Part shown: piece after piece, positions 26,985-64,000 of the stretch
Layout: every line of letters starts with the position of its first letter
How positions within the stretch are numbered: position 1 is the first letter of the stretch
Assembly (NCBI RefSeq): GCF_024679095.1
Contig: NW_026111754.1
Location: 496,001-560,000, forward strand
DNA length: 64,000 nucleotides
Reading direction: 5' to 3'
Source: Eriocheir sinensis
Lineage: Eukaryota > Arthropoda > Malacostraca > Decapoda > Varunidae
Made by a program: the position numbers and the translations under genes
The notes under the pieces: model-generated
Told to the model about the DNA's origin: nothing
The model's database searches: none
Seen by the model: only the letters and a program-made list of their open reading frames with translations

Positions 26985-28040
26985 ATACACATTCTCTTAT
27001 TGGTATTTTGTTTATTTATTTTGATACGAATTTACATTATTTTATGTGTATTTTGTATACATTTTTGATTCGTATTTACTTCATTTTATGTGTATTTTGT
27101 GTATATATTTTTATAGAAATCTACGTTATTTTATGTGTATTCGGATATATATTTTGAAAAAAATTTACATTGTTTTATATGTATTTTGCATATCTATTTC
27201 AATACAAATTTACCTTATTGTATGTGTTTTTTCTATATTTATTTTAATACAAATTAAATTTTTTGATGTGTATTTTGGTATATATATTTTTAAAAATAAA
27301 AAAAAGGCGTTATTTTATAGGTATTTTGCTTCTTTATTTTCATTCAAATTTACATTATTTTATTAATATTCTGTGTATTTATTTTGATACGATTTTACAT
27401 TATTCTATTTGTGTTTTGTACATATTTTTTTTTATACAAATTTACGTTATTTTAAGTGTATTTGTTTATGTATTTTCATTCAAATTTACATTATTTTATG
27501 TGTATTTTGTGTATGTATTTCAATACAAATTTACCTAATTTTATGTGTATTTTGTATATTTATTTTCATACAAATTTAAAATATTTTTGTGTATTTTTGT
27601 ATATAGTTTGATACAAATTTAGGTTATTTTATGTGTATTTTGTATATCTATTTTCAACCAAATACACATTCTTTTATTGATATTTTGTTTATCTATTTTG
27701 ACGCGAATTTACATTATTTAATGAGTATTTTGTATTTATATTTTTATACGTATTTACATCATTTCATGTGTATTTTGTAGAGTTTTAAACAAATTTATAT
27801 TATTTAATGTGTATTTTGTATATATATATTTATACAAATACACATTCTTTTATTGTTATTTTGTTCATTTATTTTGCTACTAATTTACATTATTTTACGT
27901 GTATTTTGTATACATTTTTTATACGTATTTATTTAATTTTATGTTTATTTTGTATATATATTTTTTTTATAGAAATCTACCTTATTTCATGTGTATTCGT
28001 ATATATATTTTGAAACAAATTTACATTGTTTATATGTATA
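26985..28040 (+). repeat. Satellite block 21, plus orientation
   Basis: One clear 19-mer copy (27,119-27,977). From about 27,830 rightward it pairs with the very end of the window in reverse complement, sharing the private variant GTATTTATTTAATTTTATG. Confidence 0.9.
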
Positions 28041-28121
28041 ATTAAATTTGTATTAAAATTAATATACAAAATGCGTATATAATAAGGTAAATTTGTATTG
28101 AAAAAATATGCAACATACACG
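28041..28121 (-). repeat. Satellite block 22, minus island of about two monomers
   Basis: Bounded by TATATGTATAATTAAATTTG on the left and the ACATACACGTTTACTC junction on the right. Mirror partner is 63,711-63,790. Confidence 0.85.
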
Positions 28122-29048
28122 TTTACTCATACAAATTTATATTATTTTATTGGTATTTTGTTTATTTATTTTGATACGAATTACATGATTATATGTGTAT
28201 TTTGTACATATTTTTTATACGTATTTACATTATTTAATGTGTATTTTGTTTATATATTTTCATACAAATTTACGTTATTATATGTGTATTTGTATAAATA
28301 TTTTGATACAAATTTACTTTATTTCATGTATTTTGTATATATATTTCAATTCAAAATTAGCTGATTTTGTGTGTATTTTGTATATATTTTCATACAAATT
28401 TAATTACTTCTGTGTATTTTTGTATATAGTTTTATATAAATTTACGTTATTTTATATGTTTTTTTATATTTATATTTATACAAATACACATTCTTTTATT
28501 GGTATTTTGTTTATTTATTTTGATAAAATAAAATAAATGCGTTATTTTATTGGTATTTTGCTTTTTTATTTTCATACAAATTTACATTATTTTATTAATA
28601 TTCTGTGTATTTATTTTGATACGATTTTACATTATTCTATTTGTATTTTGTACATATTTTTTATGCAAATTTACGTTATTTTAAGTGTATTTGTTTATGT
28701 ATTTTCATTCAAATTTACATTATTTTATGTATTTTATGTATGTTTTAAACAAATTTACCTAATTTTATGTGTATTTTGTATATTTATTTCCATACAAATT
28801 TAAAATATTTTGTGTTTTTTGTATATAGTTTGATACAAATTTAGGTTATTTTATGTGTATTTTGTATATCTATTTTCATAGAAATACATTCTTTTATTGA
28901 TATTTTGTGTATTTATTTTGACGCGAGTATTCATTATTTAATGTGTATTTTGTATATATATTTTTATACGTATTTACATCATTTCATGTGTATTTTTTTT
29001 AGTTTTAAACAAATTTAAATAATTTAATGTGTATTTTGTATATATATA

Positions 29049-29136
<88 letters not shown>

Positions 29137-29379
29137 CAAATACACATTCTTTTATTGGTATTTTGTTTATTTATTTTGATACTAATTTACATTATTTTAT
29201 GTGTATTTTGTATACATTTTTTATACGTATCTACTTAATTTTATGTGTATTTTGTATATATATATTTATGAAAATCTACCTTATTTCATGTGTATTCGTA
29301 TATATTTTGAAACAAATTTACATTGTTTATATGTATTTTGCATATCTATTTTTGTGTATTTTGTATTTATTTTTGTTAT
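28122..29379 (+). repeat. Satellite block 23, plus orientation
   Basis: Begins at the ACACGTTTACTC junction and ends at TTTTGTTATACATAG, as block 13 does. Contains the TA tract at 29,039. Mirror partner is 62,446-63,710. Confidence 0.9.
29039..29131. repeat. (TA)n microsatellite, about 93 bp
   Basis: A TA run broken once by TTT near 29,051. It lies in the monomer preceding ACACATTCTTTTATTGG, which has only a short TATATATATA box at the homologous sites near 14,225 and 27,815. It is mirrored by the tract at 62,690. Confidence 0.95.
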
Positions 29380-29490
29380 ACATAGAATAATGTAAAATCG
29401 TATCAAAATAAGTACACAGAATATCAATAAATTATTTAAATTTGTAAGAAAATAAAGATGCAAAATACCCATAAAATAAATCATATTTAA
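29380..29490 (-). repeat. Satellite block 24, minus island
   Basis: About two and a half monomers between the TTATACATAG junction and ATATTTAAAAAAAATGTACG. Tandem partner 36,220-36,330, mirror partner 62,334-62,445. Confidence 0.87.
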
Positions 29491-30860
29491 AAAAAATGTA
29501 CGTTATTTTATGTGAATTTGTTTTCATTTCATACAAATTTACATTATTTTATGTGTATTTTTTACATGTATTTAAATACAAATTTAACTAATTATATGTG
29601 TATTTTGTATATCTATTTTCATACAAATTGAAATTTTTTTTTTGTTTTTTTGTATATATTTTTATTCATATTTTCGTAATTTTATGAGTATTTTGTATAT
29701 TTATTTTCCTACAAATACACGTTCTTTTATCGGAATTTTGTTTATTTATTTTGATACGAATTTTCATTTTTTTAGGTGTATTTGATATATATATTTTTAT
29801 ACTTATTTACATAATTTTATATGTATTTTGAATATATATTTTCATAGAAATTTACTCTATACATTTTTTTATAAGTATTTATATCATTTGATGTGTATTT
29901 TGTATATATATTTTATAGAAATCTGCGCTATTTTATGTGTATTCGTATATATATTTTGAAACAAATTTACATTGTTTTATAAGTATTTTGCATATCTATT
30001 TCAATACAAATTTACCTTATTGTACGTGTTTTTGTATATTTATTTTAACACAAATTTAATTTTTGATGTGTATTTTGGTATATATATTTTATAAATAAAA
30101 AATGCGTTATCTTATGGGTATTTTGCTTTTTTCATACAAATTTACATTATTTATTAATATTCTGTGTATTTATATTGACGATTTTACATTATTCTACTTG
30201 TGTTTTGTACATATTTTTTTATACAAATTTACGTTATTTTAAGTGTATTTGTTTATGTATTTTCATTCAAATTTACATTATTTTATGTGTATTTTGTGTA
30301 TGTATTTCAATACAAATTTACCTAGTTTTATGTGTATTTTGTATATTTATTTTCATACAAATTCAAAATATTTTTGTGTATTTTTGTATATAGTTTGATA
30401 TAAATTTAGGTTATTTTATGTGTATTTTGTATATCTATTTTCATACAAATACACATTCTTTAATTGATATTTTGTTTATTTATTTTGACGCGAATTTACA
30501 TTATTTAGTGTGTATTTTGTATATATATTTTTATACGTATTTACATCATTTCATATGTTTTGTATAGTTTTAAACAAGTTTATATTATTTAATGTGTATT
30601 TTGTATATATATATTTATACAAATACACATTCTTTTATTGGTATTTTGTTTATTTATTTTGATAATAATTTACACTATTTTATGTGTATTTTGTATACAT
30701 TTTTTATACGTATTTACCTTTTTTTATGTGTATTTTGTATATATATTTTTATATAAATATACATTAATTCATGTGTATTCGTATTTATATTTTGAAACAA
30801 ATTTACATTGCTTATATGTATTTTGCATATTCATTTTTGTTTATTCTGTATTTTTGTTAT
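29491..30860 (+). repeat. Satellite block 25, plus orientation
   Basis: T-rich monomers including CGTTCTTTTATCGGAATTTT, one GTATTCG subtype at about 29,936 and the next at about 30,776. Tandem partner 36,331-37,688, mirror partner 60,961-62,333. Confidence 0.9.
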
Positions 30861-32853
30861 ACATAGAATAATGTAAAATCGGATCAAAATAAGTACACAG
30901 AATATCAATAAAATAATTTAAATTTGTATGAATATAAAGATGCAAAATACCCATAAGATAAAGCATATTTTTTTCTAAAAATACATATACAAAAATACAC
31001 ATAGAATAATTAAATTTGTATTAAAATTAATATACAAAATGCACACATACAATAAGGTAAATTTGTATTGAAAAAAAACGCAAAATACAAATAAAACTGT
31101 GTAAATTTGTTTCAAAATATATATACGAATACACATAAAATAACGTAGATTTCTATAGAAATATATATACAAAGTACACATGAAATTATGTAAATATATA
31201 TAAAAATATATATATAAACTACATATTACGTAAGGTAAATTCTTGTCAAAATAAATAAACAAAATATCATGAAAAGAATGTGTATTTGTATGAAAATAAA
31301 TAATAGATAATAAATTTGTATGAAATATATATGCAAGATACACATTAAATAATGTAAATATGTATAAAAAAAATATATACAAAAAACAAATAGAATAATG
31401 TAAAATCGTATCAAAATAAATACACCGAATATTAATAAAATAATGTAAATTTGTATGAAAAGAAAGATGCAAAATTCCCATCAAGTAGCGCATTTTTTCC
31501 AAAAATATATATACCAACATACACATTAAATATTTAAATTTGTATTGAAATAAATATACCTTTATTGAAAGAGATATGCAAAAATACATATAAAACAATG
31601 TAAATTTGTTTCAAGATATATATACAAATACACATAAAATAACGTAGATTTCTATAAATAAATATATACAAAATACACAAAACTAGGTAAATACGTATAA
31701 AAAAATGTAAACAAAATACACATAAAATAATATATATTCGAAACAAAATAAATAAACAAAATATCAATAAAAGAATGTGTATTTGTATAAATATAAATGT
31801 ACAAAATACACATACAAAATAAACATAAAATAAGGTAAATTTGTAATGAAATATATGTACAAAATACACATAAAATAATGTAAATTTATATGAAAATATA
31901 TATACAAATACACATAAAATACCATGAATTTGTATAAAATTATATATTGAAAATAAATATTAAATAATGTAAATGCGTATAAAAATATATATAAAAATTA
32001 CATATAAAATAATGTAAATTCGTATCAATATAAATCAACAAAATAGCAATAAAATAATATATATTTGAATGAAAATAGATTTACAAAATAAACATAACAT
32101 AACTAAAATTTGTATTGAAATATATACAAAAATACATAGAAATAATTTGAGTTTGTATGAAAATAGATATTCAAAATACACATAAAACTAGGTAAATTTC
32201 TTTTGAAATATATATACAAAATACCCATAAAATATTGTAAATTTGTGTCAAAATATATAAACAAATACACAAAAAATAACGTAAATTTGTATTAAAAATA
32301 TATACAAAATACACATAAAATAATGTCAAATCGTATCAAAATGAATGAGCAGAATATCAATAAAATAACGTAAATTTGTATGAAAATAAAGATGCAAAAT
32401 ACCCATAAAATAAAGCATATTTTTAAAAACACATATAAAAAAATACATATAGAATAATTAAATTTGTATTAAAATTAATATACAAAATGTATATACAATA
32501 AGGTAAATTTGTATTGAAAAAATATGCAAAATACACATAAAAGTGTAAATTTGTTTAAAAATCTATATACGAATACACATAATATAACGTAGATTTCTAT
32601 AGAAATATATATACAAAATACACATGGAATGATGTAAATACGTATAAAAATATATATACAAAATACATATTAAATAATTTAAATTCTCGTCAAAATAAAT
32701 AAACAAAATATCAATAAAAGAGTGTGTATTTGTATGAAAATAGATATACAAAATACTCATAAAATAACATAAGTTGTATAAAACTATATACAAAATTACA
32801 CATAAATAATTTAAATTTGTATGAAAATAAATATACAAAATACACATAAAATT
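30861..32853 (-). repeat. Satellite block 26, minus orientation
   Basis: Holds the longest stop-free frame of the window (30,975-31,598, 207 codons), which is pure monomer periodicity. Tandem partner 37,689-39,680, mirror partner 58,990-60,960. Confidence 0.9.
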
Positions 32854-33065
32854 ATTTTGTATATCTATTTTATACAAATGTACGTTATTTTATGTGAATT
32901 TGTTTTCATTTCATACAAATTTACATTATTTTATGTGTATTTTGTACATGTATTTAAATACAAATTTAACTAATTACATGTGTATTTTGTATATCTATTT
33001 TCATTTAAATTGAAATTTATTTTTTTGTTTTTTTGTATATATTTTTATTCAAATTTTCGTAACCT
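32854..33065 (+). repeat. Satellite block 27, plus island of about five monomers
   Basis: Carries GTGAATTTGTTTTCATTTC and TTTTGTACATGTATTTAAA monomers between the TTATTTTGTATATC and TTCGTAACCTTATAAAA junctions. Mirror partner 58,777-58,989. Confidence 0.88.
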
Positions 33066-33612
33066 TATAAAAATATATATACCAAAATACACATAAAATA
33101 GTTAAATTTGCATTGAAATAAATATGCAAAATGCACATACAATAAGGTAAATTTGTATTGAAAGAGATATGCAAAAATACATATAAAACAATGTAAATTT
33201 GTTTCAATATTTATATACGAATACAAATAAAAATTCGTAGATTTTTTAAATTATATATATACAAAATACATATAAAATTAAGTAAATACGTATAAAAAAA
33301 TTTATACAAAATTCACATAAAATAATGTAAATTCGAATTAAAATAAATAAACAAAATACCAATAAAAGCAAGTGTCTTTGGATAAATCTAACTATACAAA
33401 ATACACATACAAAATAAACATAAAATAAGGTAGATTTGTAATAAAATATATTTACAAATACACATAAAATAATGTAAATTTATATGAAAATATATATACA
33501 AATACACATAAAATACCATGAACTTGTATAAAAATATATATTCAAAATAAATATTAAATAATGTAAAAGCGGATAAAAATATATATACAAAGTACATATA
33601 AAATAATGTAAT
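33066..33612 (-). repeat. Satellite block 28, minus orientation
   Basis: Carries the ATACCATGAACTTGTAT and AATGTAAAAGCGGAT variants. Ends at AATGTAATCTACTTTTT. Mirror partner 58,232-58,776; the 69-codon translations of the two are identical but for the final residue. Confidence 0.9.
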
Positions 33613-34030
33613 CTACTTTTTTTGTATATTTATTTCAATGCAAATTTAAATATTTTATGTGTATTTTGTTATTTTATGTTTATTTTGTATGTGTATTTTG
33701 TATATTTATATTTATCCAAATACACATTCTTTTATTGGTATTTTGTTTATATATTTTAATTCGAATTTACATTGTTTTATGTGTATTTTGTATACATTTT
33801 TTTTAACGTATTTACTTAATTTTATGTGTATTTTGTATATATATTTTTATAGAAATCTACGTTTTTTATTTGTATTCGTATATATATTTTGAAACAAATT
33901 TACATTGTTTTATATGTATTTTTGCATATCTCTTTCAATACAAATTTACCTTATTGTATGTGCATTTTGTATATTTATTTCAATGCAAATTTAAATATTT
34001 TATGTGTATTTTGGTATATATATTTTTATA
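33613..34030 (+). repeat. Satellite block 29, plus orientation
   Basis: Short plus segment ending at TTTTTATAAGATTACG, the reverse form of the TTCGTAATCTTATAAAA junction. Mirror partner 57,842-58,231. Confidence 0.88.
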
Positions 34031-35283
34031 AGATTACGAAAATTTGAATAAAAATATATACAAAAAAACAAAAACAAAAAATTCAATTTGTATGAAAATA
34101 GATATACAAAATACACATATAATTAGTTAAATTTGTATTTAAATACATGTACAAAATACACATAAAATAATGTAGATTTGTATGAAATGAAAACAAATTC
34201 ACATAAAATTCGCGTCAAAATAAATAATCAAAATATCAATAAAAGAATGTGTATTTATATGAAAATAGATATACAAAATACACATAATATAACCTAAATT
34301 TGTATCAAACTATATACAAAAATACACAAAATATTTTAAATTTGTATGAAAATAAATATTCAAAATACACATAAAATTATGTAAATTTGTATTGAAATAC
34401 ATACACAAAATACACATAAAATAATGTAAATTTGAATGAAAATACATAAACAAATACACTTAAAATAACGTAAATTTGTATAAAAAAAAATATGTACAAA
34501 ACACAAATAAAAATAATGTAAAATCGTATCAAAATAAATACACAGAATATTAATAAAATAATGTAAATTTGTATGAAAATAAAGAAGCAAAATACAGATA
34601 AAATAACGCATTTTTTTTATTTATAAAAATATATATACCAAAATACACATCAAAAAATTAAATTTGTATTAAAATAAATATACAAAAAACACATACAATA
34701 TCGTAAATTTATATTGAAATAGATATGCAAAATACATATAAAACAATGCAAATTTGTTTCAAAATATATATACGAATACACATATAATAACGTAGATTTC
34801 TATAAAAATATATATACATAATACACATAAAATGAAGTAAATACGTATAAAAAAATGTATACAAAAAACACATAAAATAATGTAAATTCGTATCAAAATA
34901 AATAAACAAAATAGCAATAAAAGAATGTGTATTTGTATAAATATAAATATACAAAATACACATAAAATAACGTAAATTTATATAAAACTATATACAAAAA
35001 CACACAGAAGTAAATTTGTATGAAAATATATAAAAATACACAAAATAAGCTAAATTTGAATTGAAATATATATAAAATACATGAAATAAAGTAATTTGTA
35101 TCAAATATTTATACAAATACATATATAATAACGTAAATTTGTATGAAAATATATAACAAAATACACATTAAATAATGTAAATACGTATAAAAAAATATGT
35201 ACAAAATACATATATAATCATGTAATTGTATCAAAATAAATAAACAAAATACCAATAAAATAATATAAATTTGTATGAGTAAA
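34031..35283 (-). repeat. Satellite block 30, minus orientation
   Basis: Contains the internal jump TTCACATAAAATTCGCGTC at 34,198 (a deletion-type junction) that recurs inverted at 49,190 and 57,668. Mirror partner 56,593-57,841. Confidence 0.9.
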
Positions 35284-36219
35284 CGTGTATGTTGTATATT
35301 TTTTCAATACAATTTACCTTTATTATATACGCATTTTGTATATTAATTTTAATATATGTGTATTTGAATTATATTTTGATACAAATTTACATTATTTTAT
35401 GTATTTTCTATATTTATTTCAATTCAAATTTAGCTTATTTTATGTGTCTTTTGTATATCTATTTTCATACAAATTTAATTATTTTTGTTTATTTTTATAT
35501 ATAGTTTTATACAATTTTCCGTTATTTTATGTGTATTTTGTATATTTATATTTATACAAGTAAACATTCTTTTATTGGCATTTAGTTTATTTATTTTGAT
35601 ACGAGATTACATTATTTTATGTGTATTTTGTATACATTTTCTTATACGTATTTACTTCATTTTATGTTTTTTTTGTATATATATTTTTATAGAAATCTAC
35701 GTTATTTTATGTGTATTCGTATATATATTTTGAAACAAATTTACATTGTTTTATGTGTATTTTGCATATCTATTTCAATACAAATTTACCTTATTGTATG
35801 TGCATTTTGTATATTTATTGTAATACAAATTTAAATATTTTATGTGTATTTTGGTATATATATTTTCAAGAAATGTGTTGTTTTATGGGTATTTTGCATC
35901 TTTATTTTCACAAATTTACATTATTTTATTAATATTCTGTGTATTTATTTTATACTATTTTATTATTCTATTTGTGTTGTGTATATATTTTTTTATACAT
36001 ATTTACATTATTTAATGTGTATTTTCTATATATATTTCATACAAATTTACGTTATTTTAAGTGTATTTGTTTATATATTTTCATTCAAATTTACATTATT
36101 TTATGTGTATTTTGTATATGTATTTCAATAGAAATATAACTAGTTTTATGTGTATTTTGTATATATATTTTTATACAAATTTAAATTATTTTTATGTATT
36201 TTGTATTTATTTTTGTTAT
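35284..36219 (+). repeat. Satellite block 31, plus orientation
   Basis: Starts at GAGTAAACGTGTATGTT and ends at TTTTGTTATACATAG. Its mirror partner 55,851-56,592 is about 194 bp shorter because it lacks roughly four monomers. Confidence 0.88.
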
Positions 36220-36330
36220 ACATAGAATAATGTAAAATCGTATCAAAATAAGTACACAGAATATCAAATTATTTAAATTTGTATGAAAATAAAGATGAAA
36301 AATACCAATAAAATAAAGCATATTTAAAAA
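36220..36330 (-). repeat. Satellite block 32, minus island
   Basis: Same length and content as block 24, with small deletions (ATATCAAATTATTT). Mirror partner 55,734-55,850. Confidence 0.87.
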
Positions 36331-37688
36331 AATGTACGTTATTTTATGTGAATTTGTTTTCATTTCATACAAATTTACATTATTTTATGTGTATTTTGTA
36401 CATGTATTTAAATACAAATTTAACTAATTATATGTGTATTTTGTATATCTATTTTCACAAATTGAAATTTATTTTTTGTTTTTTTGTATATATTTTATTC
36501 ATATTTTCGTAATTTTATGAGTATTTTGTATATTTATTTTCCTACAAATACACGTTCTTTATCGGAATTTTGTTTATTTATTTTGATACGAATTTTCATT
36601 TTTTAGGTGTATTTGATATATATATATTTTTATACTTATTTACATAATTTTATATGTATTTTGAATATATATTTTCATAGAAATTTACTTTTTACATTTT
36701 TTATACGTATTTACTACATTGATGTGTATTTTGTATATATATTTTATAGAAATTCCACGTTATTTTATGTGTATTCGTATATATATTTTGAAACAATTTT
36801 ACATTGTTTTATATGTATTTTGTATATCTATTTCAATACAATTTACCTTATTGTATGTGTTTTTGTATATTTATTTTAACACAAATTTAATTTTTGATGT
36901 GTATTTTGGTATATTTTTATAAATAAAAAAATGCGTTATCTTATGGGTATTTTGCTCTTTTATTTTCATACAAATTTACATTATTTTATTAATATTCTGT
37001 GTATTTATATTGATACGATTTTACATTATTCTACTTGTGTTTTGTACATATTTTTTATACAATTTACGTTATTTTAAGTGTATTTGTTTATGTATTTTCA
37101 TTCAAATTTACATTATTTTATGTGTATTTGTGTATGTATTTCAACACAAATTTAATAGTTTTATGTGTATTTTGTATATTTATTTTCATACAAATTCAAA
37201 ATATTTTTGTATTTTGTATATAGTTTGATATAAATTTAGGTTATTTTATGTGTATTTTGTATATCTATTTTCATACAAATACACATTCTTTAATTGATAT
37301 TTTGTTTATTTTTTTGACGCGAATTTCATTATTTAATGTGTATTTGTATATATATTTTTATACGTATTTACATCATTTCATATGTATTTTGTATAGTTTT
37401 AAACAAATTTATATTATTTAATGTGAATTTTGTATATATATTTATACAAATACACATTCTTTTATTGGTATTTTGTTTATTTATTTTGATAATAATTTAC
37501 ACTATTTTATGTGTATTTTGTATACATTTTTTATACGTATTTACCTTTTTTTATGTGTATTTTGTATATATATTTTTATAGAAATTCATTAATTCATGTG
37601 TATTCGTATATATATTTTGAAACAAATTTACATTGCTTATATGTATTTTGCATATTCATTTTGTTTATTCTGTATTTATTTTTGTTAT
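36331..37688 (+). repeat. Satellite block 33, plus orientation
   Basis: Second tandem copy of block 25 with many single-base deletions (for example at 36,559, 36,836 and 37,064). Mirror partner 54,345-55,733. Confidence 0.88.
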
Positions 37689-39680
37689 ACATAGAATAAT
37701 GTAAAATCGGATCAAAATAAGTACACAGAATATCAATAAAATAATTTAAATTTGTATGAATATAAAGATGCAAAATACCCATAAGATAAAGCATATTTTT
37801 TTCCTAAATACATATACAAAAATACACATAGAATAATTAAATTTGTATTAAAATTAATATACAAAATGCACACATACAATAAGGTAAATTTGTATTGAAA
37901 AAAAACGCAAAATACAAATAAAACTGTGTAAATTTGTTTCAAAATATATATACGAATACACATAAAATAACGTAGATTTCTATAGAAATATATATACAAA
38001 GTACACATGAAATTATGTAAATATGTATAAAAATATATATAAACTACATATTAAGTAACGTAAATTCGGGTCAAAATAAATAAACAAAATATCATGAAAA
38101 GAATGTGTATTTGTATGAAAATAAATAATAGATAATAAATTTGTATGAAATATATATGCAAGATACACATTAAATAATGTAAATATGTATAAAAAAATAT
38201 ATATACAAAAAACAAATAGAATAATGTAAAATCGTATCAAAATAAATATACCGAATATTAATAAAATAATGTATATTTCTATGAAAATAAAGATGCAAAA
38301 CTCCCATCAAATAGCGCATTTCTTATAAAAATATATATACCAAAATACACATAAAATATTTAAATTTGTTTTGAAATAAATATACAAAATGCACATACAA
38401 TAAGGTAAATTTCTATTGAAAGAGATATGCAAAAATACATATAAAACAATGTAAATTTGTTTCAAAATATATATACGACTACACATAAAATAACGTAGAT
38501 TTCTATAAAAAATATATATACAAAATACACATAAAACTAGGTAAATACGTATAAAAAAATGTAAAAAAAAATACACATAAAATAATATAAATTGAAACAA
38601 AATAAATAAACAAAATATCAATAAAAGAATGTGTGTTTGTATAAATAAATGTACAAAATACATACAAAATAAACATAAAATAAGGTAAATTTGTAATGAA
38701 ATATATGTACAAATATACACATAAAATAATGTAAATTTATATGAAAATATATATAAATACACATAAAATACCATGAATTTGTATAAAATTATATATTGAA
38801 AATAAATATTAAATAATGTAAATGCGTATAAAAATATATATAAAATTACATATAAAATAATGTAAATTGCATCAATATAAATCAACAAAATACCAATAAA
38901 ATAATATATTTTAATGAAAATATATTTAAAAAATACAACTAAAATAACTAAATTTTTTATTGTAATATAAACAAAAATAAATAGAAATAATTTGAGTTTT
39001 TATGAAAATAGATATTCAAAATACACATAAAACTAGGTAAATTTTTTTGAAATATATATACAAAATACCCATAAAATATTTTAAATTTGTGTAAAAATAT
39101 ATAAAAAAATAAAGTAAAATAACTTAAATTTTTATTAAAAATATATACAAAATATAATATAAAATAATGTCAAATCGTATCAAAATGAATGAGCAGAATA
39201 TCAATAAAATAACGTAAATTTGTATGAAAATAAAGATGCAAAATACCCATAAAATAAAGCATATTTTTAAAAAAACATAAAAAAAAATACACATACAATA
39301 ATTAAATTAGTATTAAAATTAATATACAAAAATGTATATACAATATAAATTTGTATTGAAAATATAAAATAATATAAAAGTGTAAATTTGTTTAAGAATC
39401 TAGATACGAATTCAAATACTATATCGTAGTTTTCTATAGAAATATATATACAAACTAAACATTAAATGATGTAAATACGTATAAAAATATATACAAAAAC
39501 ATATTAAATAATTTAAATTCTCGACAAAATAAATAAACAAAATATCAATAAAAGAGTGTGTATTTGTATGAAAATAGATATACAAAATACTCATAAAATA
39601 ACCTAAGTTTGTATAAAACTATATACAAAAATACACATAAATAATTTAAATTTATGAAAATAAATACAAATACATAAAAT
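37689..39680 (-). repeat. Satellite block 34, minus orientation
   Basis: Second tandem copy of block 26. From about 38,600 onward it shows growing numbers of short indels against block 26. Mirror partner 52,333-54,344. Confidence 0.88.
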
Positions 39681-39887
39681 TATTTTGTATATCTATTTTG
39701 TACAAAATGTATGTGTTATTTTATGTGAATTTGTTTCATCATACAAATTTACATTATTATATGTATTTTGTACATGTATTTAAATACAATTTAACTAATT
39801 ATATGTGTATTTTGTATATCTATTTCATTTAAATTTAAATTTATTTTTTTTGTTTTTTACATATTTTTATTCAAATTTTCGTAACCT
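39681..39887 (+). repeat. Satellite block 35, plus island
   Basis: Second tandem copy of block 27. Mirror partner 52,121-52,332. Confidence 0.85.
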
Positions 39888-40432: not shown

Positions 40433-40506
40433 CTACTCTTTTTTTAGACATTTAATGTTGGGACTTTTAAATATTTTATGTGGGCCATTTGTATATATAT
40501 TTTATA
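40433..40506 (+). repeat. Satellite block 37, plus remnant
   Basis: A shortened copy of block 29 with unusual G-rich words (GTTGGGAC, GTGGGCC) not present in sister copies. Mirror partner is the 53-bp island 51,521-51,573. Confidence 0.75.
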
Positions 40507-51520: not shown

Positions 51521-51573
51521 ATACACATACAATATTTAAATTTGCATTGAAATAAATATACAAAAAAGGTAGA
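51521..51573 (-). repeat. Satellite block 48, minus remnant
   Basis: Just over one A-rich monomer, followed by AAAAAAGGTAGATTACATT, the same minus-to-plus junction as at 58,231. Confidence 0.8.
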
Positions 51574-52120
51574 TTACATTATTTTATATGTACTTTGTAT
51601 ATATATTTTTATACGCTTTTACATTATTTAATATTTATTTTGAATATATATTTTTATACAAATTCATGGTATTTTATGTGTATTTGTATATATATTTTCA
51701 TATAAATTTACATTATTTTATGTGTATTTGTAAATATATTTTATTACAAATCTACCTTATTTTATGTTTATTTTGTATGTGTATTTTGTATATTTAGATT
51801 TATCCAAATACACTTTCTTTTATTGGTATTTTGTTTATTTATTTTAATTCGAATTTACATTATTTTATGCGAATTTTGTATACATTTTTTTTATACGTAT
51901 TTACTTAATTTTATATGTATTTTGTATATATATTTTTATAAAAATCTACGTTTTTTTATTTGTATTCGTATATATATTTTGAAACAAATTTACATTGTTT
52001 TATATGTATTTTTGCATATCTCTTTCAATACAAATTTACCTTATTGTATGTGCATTTTGTATATTTATTTCAATGCAAATTTAACTATTTTATGTGTATT
52101 TTGGTATATATATTTTTATA
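51574..52120 (+). repeat. Satellite block 49, plus orientation
   Basis: Carries TTCATGGTATTTTATGTG and TTTTGTATGTGTATTTTG variants and ends at TTTTTATAAGGTTACG. Tandem partner 58,232-58,776 (547 versus 545 bp). Confidence 0.9.
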
Positions 52121-52332
52121 AGGTTACGAAAATTTGAATAAAAATATATACAAAAAAACAAAAAAATAAATTTAAATTTAAATGAAAATAGATATACAAA
52201 ATACACATATAATTAGTTAAATTTGTATTTAAATACATGTACAAAATACACATATAATAATGTAAATTTGTATGAAATGAAAACAAATTCACATAAAATA
52301 ACGTACATTTCAGTATAAATAGATATACAAAA
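52121..52332 (-). repeat. Satellite block 50, minus island
   Basis: Ends at ACAAAATAATTTTATGTG, the reverse form of the junction at 32,853. Tandem partner 58,777-58,989. Confidence 0.88.
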
Positions 52333-54344
52333 TAATTTTATGTGTATTTTGTATATTTATTTTCATACAAATTTAAATTATTTATGTGTATTTTTGTATA
52401 TAGTTTTATACAAACTTAGGTTATTTTATGAGTATTTTGTATATCTATTTTCATACAAATACACACTTTTTATTGATATTTTGTTTATTTATTTTGACGA
52501 GAATTTAAATTATTTAATATGTTTTTGTATATATATTTTTATACGTATTTACATCATTTCATGTGTATTTTGTATATATATTTATAGAAATCTACGTTAT
52601 ATTATGTGTATTCGTATATAGATTTTAAACAAATTTACACTTTTATGTGTATTTTGCATATTTTTTCAATACAAATTTACCTTATTGTATATACATTTTG
52701 TATATTTAATTTTAATACAAATTTAATTATTCTATATGTATTTTTTTATATGTATTTTTTTAAAAATATGCTTTATTTTATGGGTATTTTGCATCTTTAT
52801 TTTCATACAAATTTACGTTATTTTATTGATATTCTGCTCATTCATTTTGATACGATTTGACATTATTTTATGTGTATTTTGTATATATTTTTAATACAAA
52901 TTTACGTTATTTTTTGTGTATTTGTTTATATATTTTGACACAAATTTACAATATTTTATGGGTATTTTGTATATATATTTCAAAAGAAATTTACCTAGTT
53001 TTATGTGTATTTTGAATATCTATTTTCATACAAACTCAAATTATTTCTATTTATTTTTGTATATATTTCAATACAAATTTTAGTTATGTTATGTGTATTT
53101 TGTAAATCTATTTTCATTCAAATATATATTATTTTATTGGTATTTTGTTGATTTATATTGATACGAATTTACATTATTTTATATGTAATTTTTATATATA
53201 TTTTTATACGCATTTACATTATTTAATATTTATTTTCAATATATAATTTTATACAAATTCATGGTATTTTATGTGTATTTGTATATATATTTTCATATAA
53301 ATTTACATTATTTTATGTGTATTTTGTACATATATTTCATTACAAATTTACCTTATTTTATGTTTATTTTGTATGTGTATTTTGTACATTTATATTTATA
53401 CAAACACACATTCTTTTATTGATATTTTGTTTATTTATTTTGTTTCGAATTTATATTATTTTATGTGTATTTTGTTTACATTTTTTTATACGTATTTACC
53501 TAGTTTTATGTGTATTTTGTATATATATTTTTTATAGAAATCTACGTTATTTTATGAGTAGTCGTATATATATTTTGAAACAAATTTACATTGTTTTATA
53601 TGTATTTTTGCATATCTCTTTCACTAGAAATTTACCTTATTGTATGTGCATTTTGTATATTTATTTCAAAACAAATTTAAATATTTTATGTGTATTTTGG
53701 TATATATATTTTTATAAGAAATGCGCTATTTGATGGGAGTTTTGCATCTTTATTTTCATAGAAATATACATTATTTTATTAATATTCGGTATATTTATTT
53801 TGATACGATTTTACATTATTCTATTTGTTTTTTGTATATATATTTTTTTATACATATTTACATTATTTAATGTGTATCTTGCATATATATTTCATACAAA
53901 TTTATTATCTATTATTTATTTTCATACAAATACACATTCTTTTCATGATATTTTGTTTATTTATTTTGACAAGAATTTACATTACTTAATATGTAGTTTA
54001 TATATATATTTTTATACATATTTACATAATTTCATGTGTATTTTGTATATATATTTCTATAGAAATCTACGTTATTTTATGTGTATTCGTATATATATTT
54101 TGAAACAAATTTACACAGTTTTATTTGTATTTATCGTTTTTTTTCAATACAAATTTACCTTATTGTATGTGTGCATTTTGTATATTAATTTTGATACAAA
54201 TTTAATTATTCTATGTGTATTTTTGTATATGTATTTTTGGAAAAAAATATGCTTTATCTTATGGGTATTTTGCATCTTTATATTCATACAAATTTAAATT
54301 ATTTTATTGATATTCTGTGTACTTATTTTGATCCGATTTTACAA
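52333..54344 (+). repeat. Satellite block 51, plus orientation
   Basis: Tandem partner 58,990-60,960. The right end lacks the usual ATTATTCTATGT before ATAACAAAAATAAA, a 12-base loss that its partner does not share. Confidence 0.9.
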
Positions 54345-55733
54345 ATAACAAAAATAAATACAGAATAAACAAAAGTAGATATGCAAAATACATATAAGCA
54401 ATGTAAATTTGTTTCAAAATATATATACGAATACACATGAATTAAGGTAGATTTCTATAAAAATATATATACAAAATACACATAAAAAAAGGTAAATACG
54501 TATAAAAAATGTATACAAAATACACATAAAATAGTGTAAATTATTATCAAAATAAATAAACAAAATACCAATAAAAGAATGTGTATTTGTATAAATATAT
54601 ATATACAAAATTCACATTAAATAATATAAATTTGTTTAAAACTATACAAAATACATATGAAATGATGTAAATACGTATAAAAATATATATACAAAATACA
54701 CATTAAATAATGTAAATTCGCGTCAAAAAAAAATAAACAAAATATCAATTAAAGAATGTGTATTTGTATGAAAATAGATATACAAAATACACATAAAATA
54801 ACCTAAATTTATATCAAACTATATACAAAAATACACAAAAATATTTTGAATTTGTATGAAAATAAATATACAAAATACACATAAAACTAGGTAAATTTGT
54901 ATTGAAATACATACACAAAATACACATAAAATAATGTAAATTTGAATGAAAATACATAAACAAATACACTTAAAATAACGTAAATTTGTATAAAAAAAAT
55001 ATGTACAAAACACAAGTAGAATAATGTAAAATCGTATCAATATAAATACACAGAATATTAATAAAATAATGTAAATTTGTATGAAAATAAAGAAGCAAAA
55101 TACCCATAAGATAACGCATTTTTTTATTTATAAAAATATATATACCAAAATACACATCAAAAAATTAAATTTGTGTTAAAATAAATATACAAAAAACACA
55201 TACAATAAGGTAAATTTGTATTGAAATAGATATGCAAAATACATATAAAACAATGTAAAATTGTTTCAAAATATATATACGAATACACATAAAATAACGT
55301 AGATTTCTATAAAAATATATATACAAAATACACATCAATGTAGTAAATACGTATAAAAAAATGTAAAGAGTAAATTTCTATGAAAATATATATTCAAAAT
55401 ACATATAAAATTATGTAAATAAGTATAAAAAATATATATATATCAAATACACCTAAAAAAATGAAAATTCGTATCAAAATAAATAAACAAAATTCCGATA
55501 AAAGAACGTGTATTTGTAGGAAAATAAATATACAAAATACTCATAAAATTACGAAAATATGAATAAAAATATATAAACAAAAAAAAAAAAATAAATTTCA
55601 ATTTGTATGAAAATAGATATACAAAATACACATATAATTAGTTAAATTTGTATTTAAATACATGTACAAAATACACATAAAATAATGTAAATTTGTATGA
55701 AATGAAAACAAATTCACATAAAATAACGTACAT
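54345..55733 (-). repeat. Satellite block 52, minus orientation
   Basis: Tandem partner 60,961-62,333. Both have ACACATCAATGTAGTAAATA followed by an abrupt jump to AAAGAGTAAATTTC, a shared internal breakpoint. Confidence 0.9.
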
Positions 55734-55850
55734 TTTTTTTAAATATGCTTTATTTTATGGGTATTTTGCATCTTTATTTTCATACAAATTTAAATAATTT
55801 TATTGATATTCTGTGTACTTATTTTGATACGATTTTACATTATTCTATGT
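55734..55850 (+). repeat. Satellite block 53, plus island
   Basis: About two and a half monomers between ACGTACATTTTTTTTAAAT and CTATGTATAACAAAA. Tandem partner 62,334-62,445. Confidence 0.87.
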
Positions 55851-56592
55851 ATAACAAAAATAAATACAAAATACATAAAAATAATTTAAATTTGTATAAA
55901 TATATATACAAAATACACATAAAACTAGTTATATTTATTGAAATATATATAAAATACACATAAAATAATGTAAATTTGAATGAAAATATATAAACAAATA
56001 CACTTAAAATAACGTAAATTTGTATGAAATATATATAGAAAAATACATTAAATAATGTAAATATGTATAAAATATATATACAATAAATATAAAATATATA
56101 ATAATAAATTTGTATTGAAATAGATATGCAAAATACACATAAAAACAATGTAAATTTGTTTCAAAATATATATACGAATACACATAAAATAACGTTTTAT
56201 AAAAATATATATAAAAAACATAAAATGAAGTAAATACGTATAAGAAAATGTATACAAAATACACATAAAATAATGTAATCTCGTATCAAAATAAATAAAC
56301 TAAATGCCAATAAAAGAATGTTTATTTGTATAAATAAATATACAAAATACACATAAAATAACGGAAAATTGTATAAAACTATATATAAAAATAAAAATAA
56401 TTAAATTTGTATGAAAATAGATATAAAAGACATAAAATAAGCTAAATTTGAATTGAAATAAATATAGAAAATACATAAAATAATGTAAATTTGTATCAAA
56501 ATATAATTCAAATACACATATATTAAAATTAATATACAAAATGCGTATATAATAAGGTAAATTTGTATTGAAAAAAATATGCAACATACACG
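55851..56592 (-). repeat. Satellite block 54, minus orientation
   Basis: Lacks about four monomers near 56,075-56,105 relative to its mirror 35,284-36,219. Also similar to 47,190-48,129. Confidence 0.87.
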
Positions 56593-57841
56593 TTTACTCA
56601 TACAAATTTATATTATTTTATTGGTATTTTGTTTATTTATTTTGATACGAATTACATGATTATATGTGTATTTTGTACATATTTTTTATACGTATTTACA
56701 TTATTTAATGTGTATTTTGTTTATATATTTTCATACAAATTTACGTTATTATATGTGTATTTGTATAAATATTTTGATACAAATTTACTTTATTTCATGT
56801 ATTTTATATATATATTTCAATTCAAATTTAGCTTATTTTGTGTGTATTTTTTATATATTTTCATACAAATTTATTTACTTCTGTGTGTTTTTGTATATAG
56901 TTTTATATAAATTTACGTTATTTTATGTGTATTTTGTATATTTATATTTATACAAATACACATTCTTTTATTGCTATTTTGTTTATTTATTTTGATACGA
57001 ATTTACATTATTTTATGTGTTTTTTGTATACATTTTTTTATACGTATTTACTTCATTTTATGTGTATTATGTATATATATTTTTATAGAAATCTACGTTA
57101 TTATATGTGTATTCGTATATATATTTTGAAACAAATTTGCATTGTTTTATATGTATTTTGCATATCTATTTCAATATAAATTTACGATATTGTATGTGTT
57201 TTTTGTATATTTATTTTAATACAAATTTAATTTTTTGATGTGTATTTTGGTATATATATTTTTATAAATAAAAAAAATGCGTTATTTTATCTGTATTTTG
57301 CTTCTTTATTTTCATACAAATTTACATTATTTTATTAATATTCTGTGTATTTATTTTGATACGATTTTACATTATTTTTATTTGTGTTTTGTACATATTT
57401 TTTTATACAAATTTACGTTATTTTAAGTGTATTTGTTTATGTATTTTCATTCAAATTTACATTATTTTATGTGTATTTTGTGTATGTATTTCAATACAAA
57501 TTTACATAATTTTATGTGTATTTTGAATATTTATTTTCATACAAATTTAAAATATTTTGTGTATTTTTGTATATAGTTTGATACAAATTTAGGTTATATT
57601 ATGTGTATTTTGTATATCTATTTCACATAAATACACATTCTTTTATTGATATTTTGATTATTTATTTTGACGCGAATTTTATGTGAATTTGTTTTCATTT
57701 CATACAAATTATTATTTTATGTGTATTTTGTACATGTATTTAAATACAAATTTAACTAATTATATGTGTATTTTGTATATCTATTTCATACAAATTGAAT
57801 TTTTGTTTTTGTTTTTTTGTATAATATTCAAATTGTATTCT
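56593..57841 (+). repeat. Satellite block 55, plus orientation
   Basis: Same content and order as block 45 (1,249 versus 1,240 bp; offset about 8.46 kb), and mirror of block 30. Confidence 0.9.
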
Positions 57842-58231
57842 TATAAAATATATATACTAAAATACACATAAAATATTTAAATTTGCATTGAAATAAATAT
57901 ACAAAATGCACATAATAAGGTAAATTTGTATTGAAAGAGATATGCAAAATACATATAAAACAATGTAAATTTGTTTCAAAATATATATATGAATACAAAT
58001 AAAAACGTAGATTTCTATAAAATATATACAAAATACATAAAATTAAGTAAATACGTTAAAATGTATAAAATACACATAAAATAATGTAATTGAATTAAAT
58101 ATATAAACAAAATACCAATAAAAGAATGTGTATTTGGATAAATATAATATACAAAATACAAAATAAACATAAAATAACAAAATACACATAAAATATTTAA
58201 ATTTGCATTGAAATAAATATACAAAAAAAGT
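57842..58231 (-). repeat. Satellite block 56, minus orientation
   Basis: Mirror of block 29. Many single-base deletions compared with 49,370-49,720, for example TAAATACGTTAAAATG. Confidence 0.85.
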
Positions 58232-58776
58232 AGATTACATTATTTTATATGTACTTTGTATATATATTTTTATCCGCTTTTACATTATTTAATATTTATT
58301 TTGAATATATATTTTTATACAAGTTCATGGTATTTTATGTGTATTTGTATATATATTTTCATATAAATTTACATTATTTTATGTGTATTTGTAAATATAT
58401 TTTATTACAAATCTACCTTATTTTATGTTTATTTTGTATGTGTATTTTGTATATTTAGATTTATCCAAATACACTTTCTTTTATTGGTATTTTGTTTATT
58501 TATTTTAGTTCGAATTTACATTATTTTATGTGAATTTTGTATACATTTTTTTATAAGTATTTACCTAATTTTATATGTATTTTGTATATATATTTTTATA
58601 AAAATCTACGTTTTTTATTTGTATTCGTATATATATTTTGAAACAAATTTACATTGTTTTATATGTATTTTTGCATATCTCTTTCAATACAAATTTACCT
58701 TATTGTATGTGCATTTTGTATATTTATTTCAATGCAAATTTAACTATTTTATGTATTTTGGTATATATATTTTATA
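58232..58776 (+). repeat. Satellite block 57, plus orientation
   Basis: Second tandem copy of block 49 and mirror of block 28. Shares TATCCGCTTTTAC with block 28 (as GTAAAAGCGGATA), where block 49 has ATACGC. Confidence 0.9.
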
Positions 58777-58989
58777 AGGTTACGAAAATTTGAATAAAAA
58801 TATATACAAAAAAACAAAAAAATATATTTAAATTTAAATGAAAATAGATATACAAAATACACATATAATTAGTTAAATTTGTATTTAAATAAATGTACAA
58901 AATACACATATAATAACGTAAATTTGTATGAAATGAAAACAAATTGGCATAAAATAACGTACATTTGCAATAAATAGATATACAAAATA
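58777..58989 (-). repeat. Satellite block 58, minus island
   Basis: Second tandem copy of block 50 and mirror of block 27. Confidence 0.88.
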
Positions 58990-60960
58990 ATTTTATGTGT
59001 ATTTTGTATATTTATTTTCATACAAAATTAAATTATTTATGTGTATTTTTGTATATTGTTTTATACAAAGTTAGGTTATTTTATGAGTATTTTGTATATC
59101 TATTTTCATACAATACACACTTTTATTGATATTTTGTTTATTTATTTTGACGAGAATTTAAATTATTTAATATGTTTTTTGTATATATATTTTTATACGT
59201 ATTTACATCATTTCATGTGTATTTTGTATATATATTTCTATAGAAATCTACGTTATATTATGTGTATTCGTATATAGATTTTTAAACAAATTTACACTTT
59301 TATGTGTATTTTGCATATTTTTTCAATACAAATTTACCTTTTATTGTATATACATTTTGTATATTAATTTTAATACAAATTTAATTATTCTATATGTATT
59401 TTTTTATATGTATTTTTTTAAAAATATGCTTTATTTTATGGGTATTTTGCATCTTTATTTTCATACAAATTTACGTTATTTTATTGATATTCTGCTCATT
59501 CATTTTGATACGATTTGACATTATTTTATGTGTATTTTGTATATATTTTTAATACAAATTTACGTTATTTTTTGTGTATTTGTTTATATATTTTGACACA
59601 AATTTCACAATATTTTATGGGTATTTTGTGTATATATTTCAAAAGAAATTTACCTAGTTTTATGTGTATTTTGAATATCTATTTTCATACAAACTCAAAT
59701 TATTTCTATGTATTTTTGTATATATTTCAATACAAATTTTAGTTATGTTATGTTTATTTTGTAAATCTATTTTCATTCAAATATATATTATTTTATTGCT
59801 ATTTTGTTGATTTATATTGATACGAATTTACATTATTTTATATGTAATTTATATATTTTTATACGCATTTACATTATTTAATATTTATTTTCAATATATA
59901 ATTTTATGCAAATTCATGGTATTTTATGTGTATTTGTATATATATTTTCATAAATTTACATTATTTTATGTGTATTTTGTACATATATTTCATTACAAAT
60001 TTACCTTTTATTTTATGTTTATTTTGTATGTGTATTTTGTACATTTATATTTATACAAATACATTCTTTTATTGATATTTTGTTTATTTATTTTGTTTCG
60101 AATATATATTATTTTATGTATTTTGTTTACATTTTTTATACGTATTTATTTAGTTTTATGTGTATTTTGTATATATATTTATTATAGAAATTCACGTTAT
60201 TTTATGTGTAGTCGTATATATATTTGAAACAATTTACATTGTTTTATATGTATTTTGCATATCTCTTCAATAGAAGTTTACTTTATTGTATGTGCATTTT
60301 GTATATTTATTTCAAAACAAATTTAAATATTTTATGTGTATTTTGGTATATATATTTTATAAGAAATGCGCTATTTGATGGGAGTTTTATATCTTTATTT
60401 TCATAGAAATATACATTATTTTATTAATATTCGGTGTATTTATTTTGATACGATTTTACATTATTCTATTTGTTTTGTATATATATTTTTTATACATATT
60501 TACATTATTTAATGTGTATCTTGCATATATATTTCATACAAATTTATTATCTATTATTTTCATACAAATACACATTCATTTCATGATATTTTGTTAAATA
60601 ATTTTGACAAGAATTAACATTACTTAATATGTATTTTATATATATATTTTTATACGTATTTACATAATTTCATGTGTACTTTGTATATATATTTCTATAG
60701 AAATCTACGTTATTTTATGTGTATTCGTATATATATTTTGAAACAAATTTTTCAATACAAATTTACCTTATTGTATGTGTGCATTCTGTATATTATTTTT
60801 AATACAAATTTAATTATTCTATGTGTATTTTTGTATATGTATTTTGGAAAAAATATGCTTTATCTTATGGGTATTTTGCATCTTTATATTCATACAAATT
60901 TAAATTATTTTATTGATATTCTGTGTACTTATTTTGATCCGATTTTACATTATTCTATGT
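58990..60960 (+). repeat. Satellite block 59, plus orientation
   Basis: Second tandem copy of block 51 and mirror of block 26. Single-base deletions and small gaps become frequent at 59,850-60,760. Confidence 0.9.
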
Positions 60961-62333
60961 ATAACAAAAATAAATACAGAATAAACAAAAGTAGATATGC
61001 AAAATACATATAAGCAATGTAAATTTGTTTCAAAATATATACGAATACACATGAATTAAGGTAGATTTCTATAAAAATATATATACAAAATACACATAAA
61101 AAAAGGTAAATACGTATAAAAAATGTATACAAAATACACATAAAATAGTGTAAATTATTATCAAAATAAATAAACAAAATAATAAAGAATGTGTATTTGT
61201 ATAAATATATATATAAAATACACATTAAATAATATAAACTTGTTTAAAACTATACAAAATATATATGAAATGATGTAAATACGTATAAAATATATATACA
61301 AAATACACATTAAATAATGTAAATTATGTCAAAAAAATAAACAAAATATCACTAAAGAATGTATTTGTATGAAAATAGATATACAAAATACACATAAAAT
61401 AAATTCTAAATTTATATCAAACTATATACAAAAAATACACAAAATATTTTGAATTTGTATGAAAATAAATATACAAAATACACATAAAACTAGTTAAATT
61501 TGTATTGAAATACATACACAAAATACACATAAAATAATGTAAATTTGAATGAAAATACATAAACAAATACACTAAAAATAACGTAAATTTGTATAAAAAA
61601 AATATGTACAAAACACAAATAGAATAATGTAAAATCGTATCAATATAAATACACAGAATATTAATAAAATAATGTAAATTTGTATGAAAATAAAGAAGCA
61701 AAATACCCATAAGATAACGCATTTTTTTTATTTATAAAAATATATATTCCAAAATACACATCAAAAAATTAAATTTGTGTTAAAATAAATATACAAAAAA
61801 CACATACAATAAGGTAAATTTGTATTGAAATACATATGCAAAATACATATAAAACAATGTAAAATTGTTTCAAAATATATATACGAATACACATAAAATA
61901 ACGTAGATTTCTATAAAAATATATATACAAAATACACATCAATGTAGTAAATACGTATAAAAAAATGTAAAGAGTAAATTTCTATGAAAATATATATTTA
62001 AAATACATATAAAATTATGTAAATAAGTATAAAAATATATATATCAAATACACATAAAAAAATGAAAATTCGAATGAAAATAAATAAACAAAATTCCGAT
62101 AAAAGCACGTATATTTGTAGGAAAATAAATATACAAAATACTCATAAAATTACGAAAATATGAATAAAAATATATACAAAAAAACAAAAAAATAAATTTC
62201 AATTTGTATGAAAATAGATATACAAAATACACATATAATTAGTTAAATTTGTATTTAAATACATGTACAAATATATATAAAATAATGTAAATTTGTATGA
62301 AATGAAAACAAATTCACATAAAATAACGTACAT
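60961..62333 (-). repeat. Satellite block 60, minus orientation
   Basis: Second tandem copy of block 52 and mirror of block 25. Confidence 0.9.
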
Positions 62334-62445
62334 TTTTAAATATGATTTATTTTATGGGTATTTGCATCTTTTATTTTCATACAAATTTAAATAATTTTAT
62401 TGATATTCTGTACGTATTTTGATACGATTTTACATTATTCTATGT
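62334..62445 (+). repeat. Satellite block 61, plus island
   Basis: Mirror of block 24 and second copy of block 53. Confidence 0.87.
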
Positions 62446-62685
62446 ATAACAAAAATAAATATAAAATACACAAAAATAGATATGCAAAATACATATAAAC
62501 AATGTAAATTTGTTTCAAAATATATACGAATACACATGAAATAAGGTAGATTTTCATAAATATATATATACAAAATACACATAAAATTAAGTAGATACGT
62601 ATAAAAAATGTATACAAAATACACATAAAATAATGTAAATTAGTATCAAAATAAATAAACAAAATTATAAAAGAATGTGTATTTG

Positions 62686-62781
<96 letters not shown>

Positions 62782-63710
62782 TATATATATATACAAAATA
62801 CACATTAAATTATATAAATTTGTTTAAAACTAAAAAAAATACACATGAAATGATGTAAATACGTATAAAAATATATATACAAAATACACATTAAATAATG
62901 AATACTCGCGTCAAAATAAATAAACAAAATATCAATAAAAGAATGTATTTCTATGAAAACAGATATACAAAATACACATAAAATAACCTAAATTTGTATC
63001 AAACTATATACAAAAAAACACAAAAATATTTTAAATTTGTATGGAAATAAATATACAAAATACACATAAAATTAGGTAAATTTGTATTTAAAAACATACG
63101 CAAAATACACATAAAATAATGTAAATTTGAATGAAAATACATAAACAAATACAATTAAAATAACGTAAATTTGCATAAAAAAATATGTACAAAATACAAA
63201 TAGAATAATGTAAAATCGTATCAAAATAAATACACAGAATATTAATAAAATAATGTATATTTGTATGAAAATAAAAAGCAAAATAATAATAAATAACGCA
63301 TTTATTTTATTTTATCAAAATAAATAAACAAAATAATAAAAGAATGTGTATTTGTATAAATAAAAATATAAAAAAATACATATAAAATAACGTAAATTTA
63401 TATAAAACTATATACAAAAAATACACAGAAGTAATTAAATTTGTATGAAAATATATACAAAATACACACAAAATCAGCTAATTTTGAATTGAAATATATA
63501 CAAAATACATGAAATAAAGTAAATTTATCAAAATATTTATACAAATACACATATAATAACGTAAATTTGTATGAAAATATATAAAAAAAATACACATAAA
63601 ATAATGTAAATACGTATCAAATAATATGTACAATATACACATATAATCATGTAATTGTATCAAAATAAATAAACAAAATACCAATAAAATAATATAAATT
63701 TATGAGTAAA
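62446..63710 (-). repeat. Satellite block 62, minus orientation, with TA tract
   Basis: Mirror of block 23. Shares its private variants (TACGTATCTACTT and TTATGAAAATCTACC when read on the minus strand). Confidence 0.9.
62690..62793. repeat. (TA)n microsatellite, about 104 bp, imperfect
   Basis: AT dinucleotides with a CTAT interruption near 62,717 and an AAAT near 62,777. Mirrors 29,039-29,131; the interruptions differ, so the two tracts have changed independently. Confidence 0.94.
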
Positions 63711-63790
63711 CGTGTATAAGGTATATTTTTCAATACAAATTTATCTTATTATAAAAGCATTTTATATTAATTTTAATACAAATTTAATTA
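63711..63790 (+). repeat. Satellite block 63, plus island
   Basis: Follows GAGTAAACGTGTATAAGG and ends at AATTATACATATAAAC. Mirror of block 22. Confidence 0.85.
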
Positions 63791-64000
63791 TACATATAAA
63801 CAATGTAAATTTGTTTCAAAATATATATACGAATACACATGAAATAAGTTAGATTTCTATAAAAAATACATATACAAAATACACATAAAATTAAATAAAT
63901 ACGTATAAAAAATGTATACAAAATACACATAAAATAATGTAAATTAGTATCAAAATAAATAAACAAAATACCAATAAAAGAATGTGTATTTGTATAAATA
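63791..64000 (-). repeat. Satellite block 64, minus orientation, cut by window end
   Basis: Reverse complement of 27,830-28,040, still matching at the last base. Confidence 0.88.

Follow-up and report, generated by a model that had tools for sequence, protein, structure and literature searches.

The window analysed here, a 64,000-nucleotide stretch of Eriocheir sinensis DNA (contig NW_026111754.1, hereafter C1528, positions 496,001–560,000), consists from position 1 to position 64,000 of a 45-bp AT-rich satellite (consensus TTTTATGTGTATTTTGTATATATATTTTTATACAAATTTACATTA, 16% GC) that runs in blocks of alternating orientation. Within it lies a large palindrome, P1, which belongs to a set of three satellite copies, A, A′ and A′′, arranged in alternating orientation along the contig. 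Positions without a contig name are those of the window; regional analyses cover C1528:396,001–660,000 (264 kb: the window plus 100 kb on each side), and genome searches were made over the 1.765-Gb assembly of 2,158 contigs.

At 2-kb resolution, the satellite occupies all 264 kb save one insertion of a long interspersed nuclear element (LINE), and it was also present, with another insertion, in the one 10-kb sample taken at 800 kb of the contig. Genome-wide, monomers with at most three mismatches number 25,677 on the forward and 25,636 on the reverse strand, while the control gave 0 and 0; the places among those listed sit on many large contigs. A crude extrapolation from the 72 monomer matches in the 264 kb puts the satellite at about 186 Mb, or close to 10% of the assembly. 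Segments of the P1 left arm match many contigs at 82–97% identity (best match per place; best 37 of 40,341 candidates), a search far from complete, as the query's own place is absent from its 37 scored places.

The sequence-only reading had proposed that 20 successive orientation blocks are repeated in mirror image about one axis, and this holds. We called orientation junctions with a cyclic two-strand profile search (a hidden Markov model of the 45-bp monomer), which placed 20 in the left arm (28,038–43,456) and 20 in the right (48,130–63,792). When paired from the outside in, all 20 pairs agree in type, the sums of their coordinates range from 91,586 to 92,071 (about 91,570 to 92,070 had been claimed) and the block lengths of the two arms correlate at 0.992, the best of 20,000 permutations reaching 0.86. 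The exact monomer phase is mirrored in only 6 of the 20 pairs, which we take, as an assumption of our own, to reflect loose placing of junctions by the model. Inverted and direct copies of the window were found by k-mer chaining, and the continuous inverted match expected of a palindrome is present: it comprises the chains 27,827–35,788 with 56,105–64,000 and 35,700–41,390 with 50,621–56,363, and a third, weaker one, 40,879–44,161 with 47,414–50,801. Outside gaps, the arms are 97.8% identical (606 mismatches and 644 gaps in 29,964 columns), compared with a median of 86% and a 95th percentile of 93% among 150 pairs of unrelated same-strand 1-kb blocks. A palindrome of irregular blocks built from one 45-bp satellite is thus far beyond chance, as the chains, the junction pairing and the block background all indicate, and its presence in the assembled sequence is confirmed. 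Because its arms are only 97.8% identical, a simple fold-back-read artefact is unlikely.

Although real, the palindrome is larger than the 27,830–64,000 first described. Its arms extend at least over 15,137–44,157 (copy A, plus strand) and, on the minus strand, from 47,418 through the window end at 64,000 to about 76,173 in window numbering (copy A′; C1528:572,173), so that the window holds about 16.6 of the 28.8 kb of the right arm. The match drops to about 93–96% in the inner 4–5 kb (in A, about 40,000–44,157). Two long matches had been quoted as including private variants. One, 34,709–34,963, is exact over its 255 bases; the other, 29,163–29,390, has one mismatch in 228 and is not private to the palindrome, since an exact direct copy stands at C1528:586,781. 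The left arm also contains a direct duplication on the plus strand (28,298–40,482; 28,298–33,661 with 35,371–40,482, offset about 7.07 kb), and the right arm mirrors it (51,531–55,974 with 58,192–62,639).

Between the arms lies a 3.26-kb spacer (44,158–47,417), made up of about 200 bp without a partner and of the end of A′. The unpartnered stretch, about 44,200–44,403 at the centre of P1, finds no close match within the 264 kb or among the loci compared. The end of A′ starts at about 44,403–44,458; it is missing from A and kept in A′′ at C1528:602.3–605.2 kb. Among the best 40 of 30,974 candidates, the five longest relatives of the spacer (88–93% identity; two in C1528 and one each on contigs C1327, C49 and C405) all begin at query base 174, which is window position 44,403.

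P1 is not an isolated palindrome, nor is its spacer special. The copies alternate along the contig: A at C1528:508.76–540.19 kb, A′ inverted at 540.46–572.17 kb and A′′ at 572.72–605.23 kb. A′ and A′′ form a second and tighter palindrome, P2, with 98.7% identity outside gaps, whose centre lies 12.4 kb beyond the window end. Its 546-bp spacer includes a (TA)n tract and has no partner between its own arms, but its right part is found at other places in the genome. By inspection, A′ ends beside this tract; as for inverted microhomology at the spacer edges, the satellite background gives homology everywhere. The (TA)n of the P2 centre (C1528:572,199–572,437) has its counterpart within the window in a (TA)126 tract at 14,598–14,849, itself at the centre of a small palindrome (arms 12,027–14,588 and 15,089–17,671). 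Altogether, 25 pure (TA)n or (AT)n tracts of at least 30 bp, the longest 252 bp, lie within the satellite of the 264 kb.

A and A′′ are direct repeats of each other (12,759–44,186, plus strand, a copy of C1528:570,408–602,306 at 98.6% identity outside gaps and an offset of about 61.6 kb). Per kilobase, their identity is 99.4–100% over 16–27 kb of the window and about 94.5–96% over most of the last 4 kb. Comparison of the three copies shows that A is the odd one there, its inner 4–5 kb being about 93–96% identical to both A′ and A′′. A has 308 private sites, A′ has 285 and A′′ only 48. A′′ tracks A over about C1528:511.7–522 kb and A′ over 534–540 kb, with patches of both between, and its affinities fall into 58 runs where shuffling predicts 108.7 (minimum of 5,000 shuffles, 86). 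Exchange between copies and an assembly consensus of mixed reads both fit this pattern, and it cannot separate the two.

We found that inverted and direct copies are about equally common in the region. Among copies 1.5 kb or longer, the 264 kb contains 240 inverted and 247 direct pairs, with similar numbers of the two in each identity bin from 90% up (25 inverted and 20 direct at 98% or more; 127 and 137 at 90–96%); pairs are non-independent events, and the bins near 90% approach the background of unrelated blocks. Copies of at least 96% identity cover 82% of the region in inverted and 86% in direct orientation. About 18 kb of the 25.8 kb read from contig C405 (384.7–402.7 kb) is collinear with C1528:436.8–455.1 kb in direct orientation (94.6%) and with C1528:598.3–616.6 kb in inverted orientation (94.9%), while C1327 and C1528 share 5.5 kb at 99.0%. 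Consequently, the orientation blocks are not the noise of one contig. The 30-kb arrangement A–A′–A′′ itself has no replicate in the little sequence read outside C1528.

The junctions themselves point to inheritance by copying. After removal of 6 of the 193 calls that fell in the LINE, 187 orientation junctions remain in the 264 kb, with a median block of about 1.1 kb. They group into 44 families (or 38 when wider flanks are compared); the largest family has 31 copies and 23 are seen once, so most junctions derive from older ones by copying. Of the 23 junctions that occur once, 8 have the edge of a copy of at least 97% identity no more than 30 bp away; the share is 5% for random positions and 14.6% for the 158 junctions that belong to families with three or more members. 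This is as expected were every inverted insertion to create fresh orientation switches. By eye, the axis phases of the junctions look spread across the monomer, which disfavours flips at one monomer dyad or a site-specific switch.

We searched the genome with the 1,901-bp P2 centre and scored the best 40 of 14,642 candidates. The full match appears in 2 of the 40 places, both in C1528 (571.5 and 509.8 kb), as diverged copies with 94% identity overall. In the other 38 places, the main same-strand match begins at query base 637–929, at or beside (TA)n, and in 35 of these 38 there is no notable same-strand match to the first 636 bases alongside. A full join seen, among the scored places, in this contig alone fits an inverted duplication begun at a fold-back-prone tract, the other places retaining the undisturbed state.

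Other features were noted along the contig. The LINE (C1528:401,225–404,735) splits the satellite and carries, in several pieces, reading frames with an endonuclease domain and resembling a reverse transcriptase; it is absent from related satellite copies elsewhere in C1528. Its frame has 32 protein matches, the best named relatives being from Cherax quadricarinatus (4 of 32), with further named matches from a turtle, a ray and a record labelled Pseudomonas. The non-satellite insertion at about C1528:807–808 kb has a 312-aa transposase-like frame in which the Pfam helix-turn-helix family DUF4817 scores over the cut-off and HTH_32 under it, and which by eye we presume to be mariner-like. A local tandem duplication at window positions 12,387–13,121 (367 bp, 98% identical) indicates that ordinary direct duplication occurs too.

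We favour, with somewhat better than even confidence, a mechanism whereby segments of the satellite are copied without regard to orientation, probably by fold-back or template switching, and later exchange sequence with one another. The satellite would grow and reshuffle as segments of about 1–30 kb are copied and inserted either way about equally well, the likeliest engine being DNA synthesis by fold-back or template switching that follows a stalled fork or a break. Repeated copying of this kind would produce strand symmetry at three levels: monomers genome-wide, blocks of about 1 kb and segments of many kilobases. At this locus, we infer an order of events in which A′ first arose from A′′ by inverted copying and was joined at (TA)n, giving P2 and its 546-bp spacer; A, copied directly from A′′, then came to sit beside the far end of A′, giving P1 and its 3.26-kb spacer; and segments were later exchanged between A, A′ and A′′. 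The blocks of about 1 kb and the palindromes of about 30 kb would then be one process at different sizes. The geometry, the identities, the orientation counts and the presence of the full joins in C1528 alone among the scored places are direct observations; the sequence of events, the fold-back step, the part played by (TA)n and the exchange are deductions.

Several observations weigh against this mechanism. Direct copies outnumber inverted ones among those less than 10 kb apart (22 to 7), so ordinary tandem duplication also acts. The (TA)n tracts, considered as general markers of junctions, are no closer to them than random positions are (P = 0.25). The 20 clean gain or loss sites, three of them longer than 9 kb, some overlapping and non-independent and one including the LINE, do not distinguish gain from loss. 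Because its inner 4–5 kb differs from both other copies, A is not explained by a single recent copying event. In three of the 38 other P2-centre places, a weak left-side match (300–430 bp at 80–87%) accompanies the right part (C1335:103,755–104,171; C1462:188,695–189,121; C1517:429,314–429,623), and these are perhaps older or independent palindromic joins. The arrangement A–A′–A′′ is known here from assembled sequence alone; the 48 private sites of A′′ could also come from a mosaic consensus; full joins confined to C1528 among the scored places (best 40 per query) are also what a misjoin would give; and C1528 is exactly 1,200,000 bp long, which may reflect a scaffolding cut.

The last of these points bear on the possibility that divergent satellite copies or haplotypes were joined head-to-head during assembly and that A–A′–A′′ is absent from the animal. 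We consider this unlikely, yet it is the alternative to be taken most seriously. A region of 264 kb that is nearly all satellite, with one LINE, on a contig of such a round length invites it, as does the finding of the full joins in this contig alone among the 40 places scored per query. An A′′ nearly without private sites resembles the consensus of A-like and A′-like reads. Heterozygosity in marine invertebrates spans the 1.3–2.2% by which A, A′ and A′′ diverge. However, the arms differ by hundreds of substitutions and by indels, several of them of 43–166 bp, and the contig holds two diverged instances of the P2 join, unlike the product of one computational misjoin. The collinearity of about 18 kb of C405 with two oppositely oriented stretches of C1528, and the older copies (90–96% identity) of which about half are also inverted, likewise speak against an artefact.

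Alternatively, balanced inversions between inverted satellite blocks, combined with unequal exchange, could have made a tandem series A, A′, A′′ and flipped its middle member in place. Opposite blocks alternate throughout the region and would be a common substrate, such inversions would yield a 1:1 ratio of orientations at equilibrium, and five pairs of sites hold segments of 1.3–10.7 kb that look reversed against their flanks, compatible with a flip in place. In all five, at least one member has flanks that form inverted repeats with one another, so that a flip cannot be shown. The 38 raw events initially scored as an inverted middle proved mostly to be a sequence aligned to itself. A test that is blind between long inverted repeats gave 20 clean gains or losses and no clear case of inversion in place. 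The three-copy set also fits a flipped tandem series poorly: the end of A′ carries about 3 kb missing from A, the sequence after A′′ (C1528:605.2–606.9 kb) matches 632.1–633.8 kb rather than the head of another unit, and A′ ends beside (TA)n rather than inside a long inverted block. Taken together, these features make in-place inversion an improbable origin of the set.

It is very unlikely that the dyads are a selected architecture, kept since hairpins or loops help centromeric or pericentromeric chromatin as proposed for Tribolium. Dyads of tens of kilobases with recurrent inversion junctions do resemble those of Tribolium madens (PMC13081366), and the commonest junction is nearly invariant over its 31 copies. 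Yet the fall-off of identity around junctions (from 0.97 to 0.88; 25 of 110 junction anchors) is much like that around random anchors (from 0.95 to 0.89; 22 usable anchors under the same match rule), being slightly steeper in the first 150 bp, and specially conserved inversion sites are therefore not clearly supported; the apparent conservation may stem from how the copies were picked. The copy-number part of this control is useless, as random anchors match many neighbouring monomers. Moreover, the blocks are many and irregular, and the listed monomer places are spread over many large contigs. A foldback-type transposable element with long inverted repeats built of satellite is hardly credible: a spacer flanked by inverted arms that consist of tandem units, with relatives on many contigs, recalls one, but the homologous segments have many different end points and are linked in varying orders, and the spacer is mainly arm sequence.

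What makes the locus interesting is less the one palindrome than an abundant satellite that appears to grow without regard to orientation. In the textbook view of satellite evolution, unequal crossing-over produces head-to-tail arrays, and direct copies only. A tentative generalization, which we would sooner doubt than assert, is that a major satellite of very roughly 10% of the assembly amplifies in an orientation-blind manner, with inverted copies about as numerous as direct ones in every identity class from 90% up and strand symmetry from the monomer to 30 kb, and that unequal crossing-over is not the main source of its copies. If true, replication-based copying by fold-back or template switching could be tested directly from genome sequence, and large satellite dyads would extend beyond Tribolium to a crustacean, which would suggest that they can be a side effect of copying, with no selection for hairpins. 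Should the joins prove to be misassemblies, the case would instead serve to caution about palindromic joins in satellite contigs.

Among known systems, the sequence-only reading had likened the palindrome to those of sex chromosomes. Sex-chromosome palindromes have near-identical arms, above about 99.9%. Those of primates share with the present case inverted arms of tens of kilobases and possible exchange from arm to arm, but the comparison fails on identity (97.8% for P1 and 98.7% for P2), and satellite content and a network of copies set the present case further apart.

Decapod satellites are alike in forming abundant families, as described for crayfish (PMC13130569) and for Decapoda repeats (PMC10454600). 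The words 'inverted' and 'orientation' do not occur in the available text of the former, and that of the latter has no 'palindrom' and uses 'inverted' once, on DIRS elements. The literature searched, with subscription papers mostly outside it, yielded no precedent on point for a decapod satellite or for one of alternating orientation.

Human inverted duplications with a single-copy spacer have been explained by fold-back, with reported spacers of 766–70,466 bp (PMC3907307). They are alike in having long inverted copies around a short spacer; the spacer of P1 (about 3.26 kb) falls inside that range and that of P2 (546 bp) just under it. Each human case is one clinical rearrangement, often with a terminal deletion, whereas inverted copying has apparently been repeated within the satellite here. 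As for a single-copy spacer, that of P1 has a copy in A′′, and that of P2 has no partner between its own arms but a right part that recurs elsewhere.

The nearest published structures that we found are the satellite macro-dyad symmetries of Tribolium beetles. A 2026 paper on Edessa bugs (PMC13427858) reportedly uses the same term. In T. madens, T. freemani and T. castaneum, the study describes dyads of up to 75 kb that were checked on raw high-fidelity (HiFi) reads, whereas the present ones are known from the assembly (PMC13081366). The likeness includes megabase satellite regions, arrays that switch orientation, palindrome-like dyads of tens of kilobases and recurrent types of inversion site. 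The Tribolium arrays mostly consist of two opposite subarrays each and have a few predominant, conserved types of inversion site, while here 264 kb holds 187 junctions with a median block of about 1.1 kb. As to types of inversion site, the junctions here form 44 families, 23 of them singletons and the largest with 31 copies. Unlike the dyads described there, the palindrome in E. sinensis repeats an entire irregular series of blocks in mirror image.

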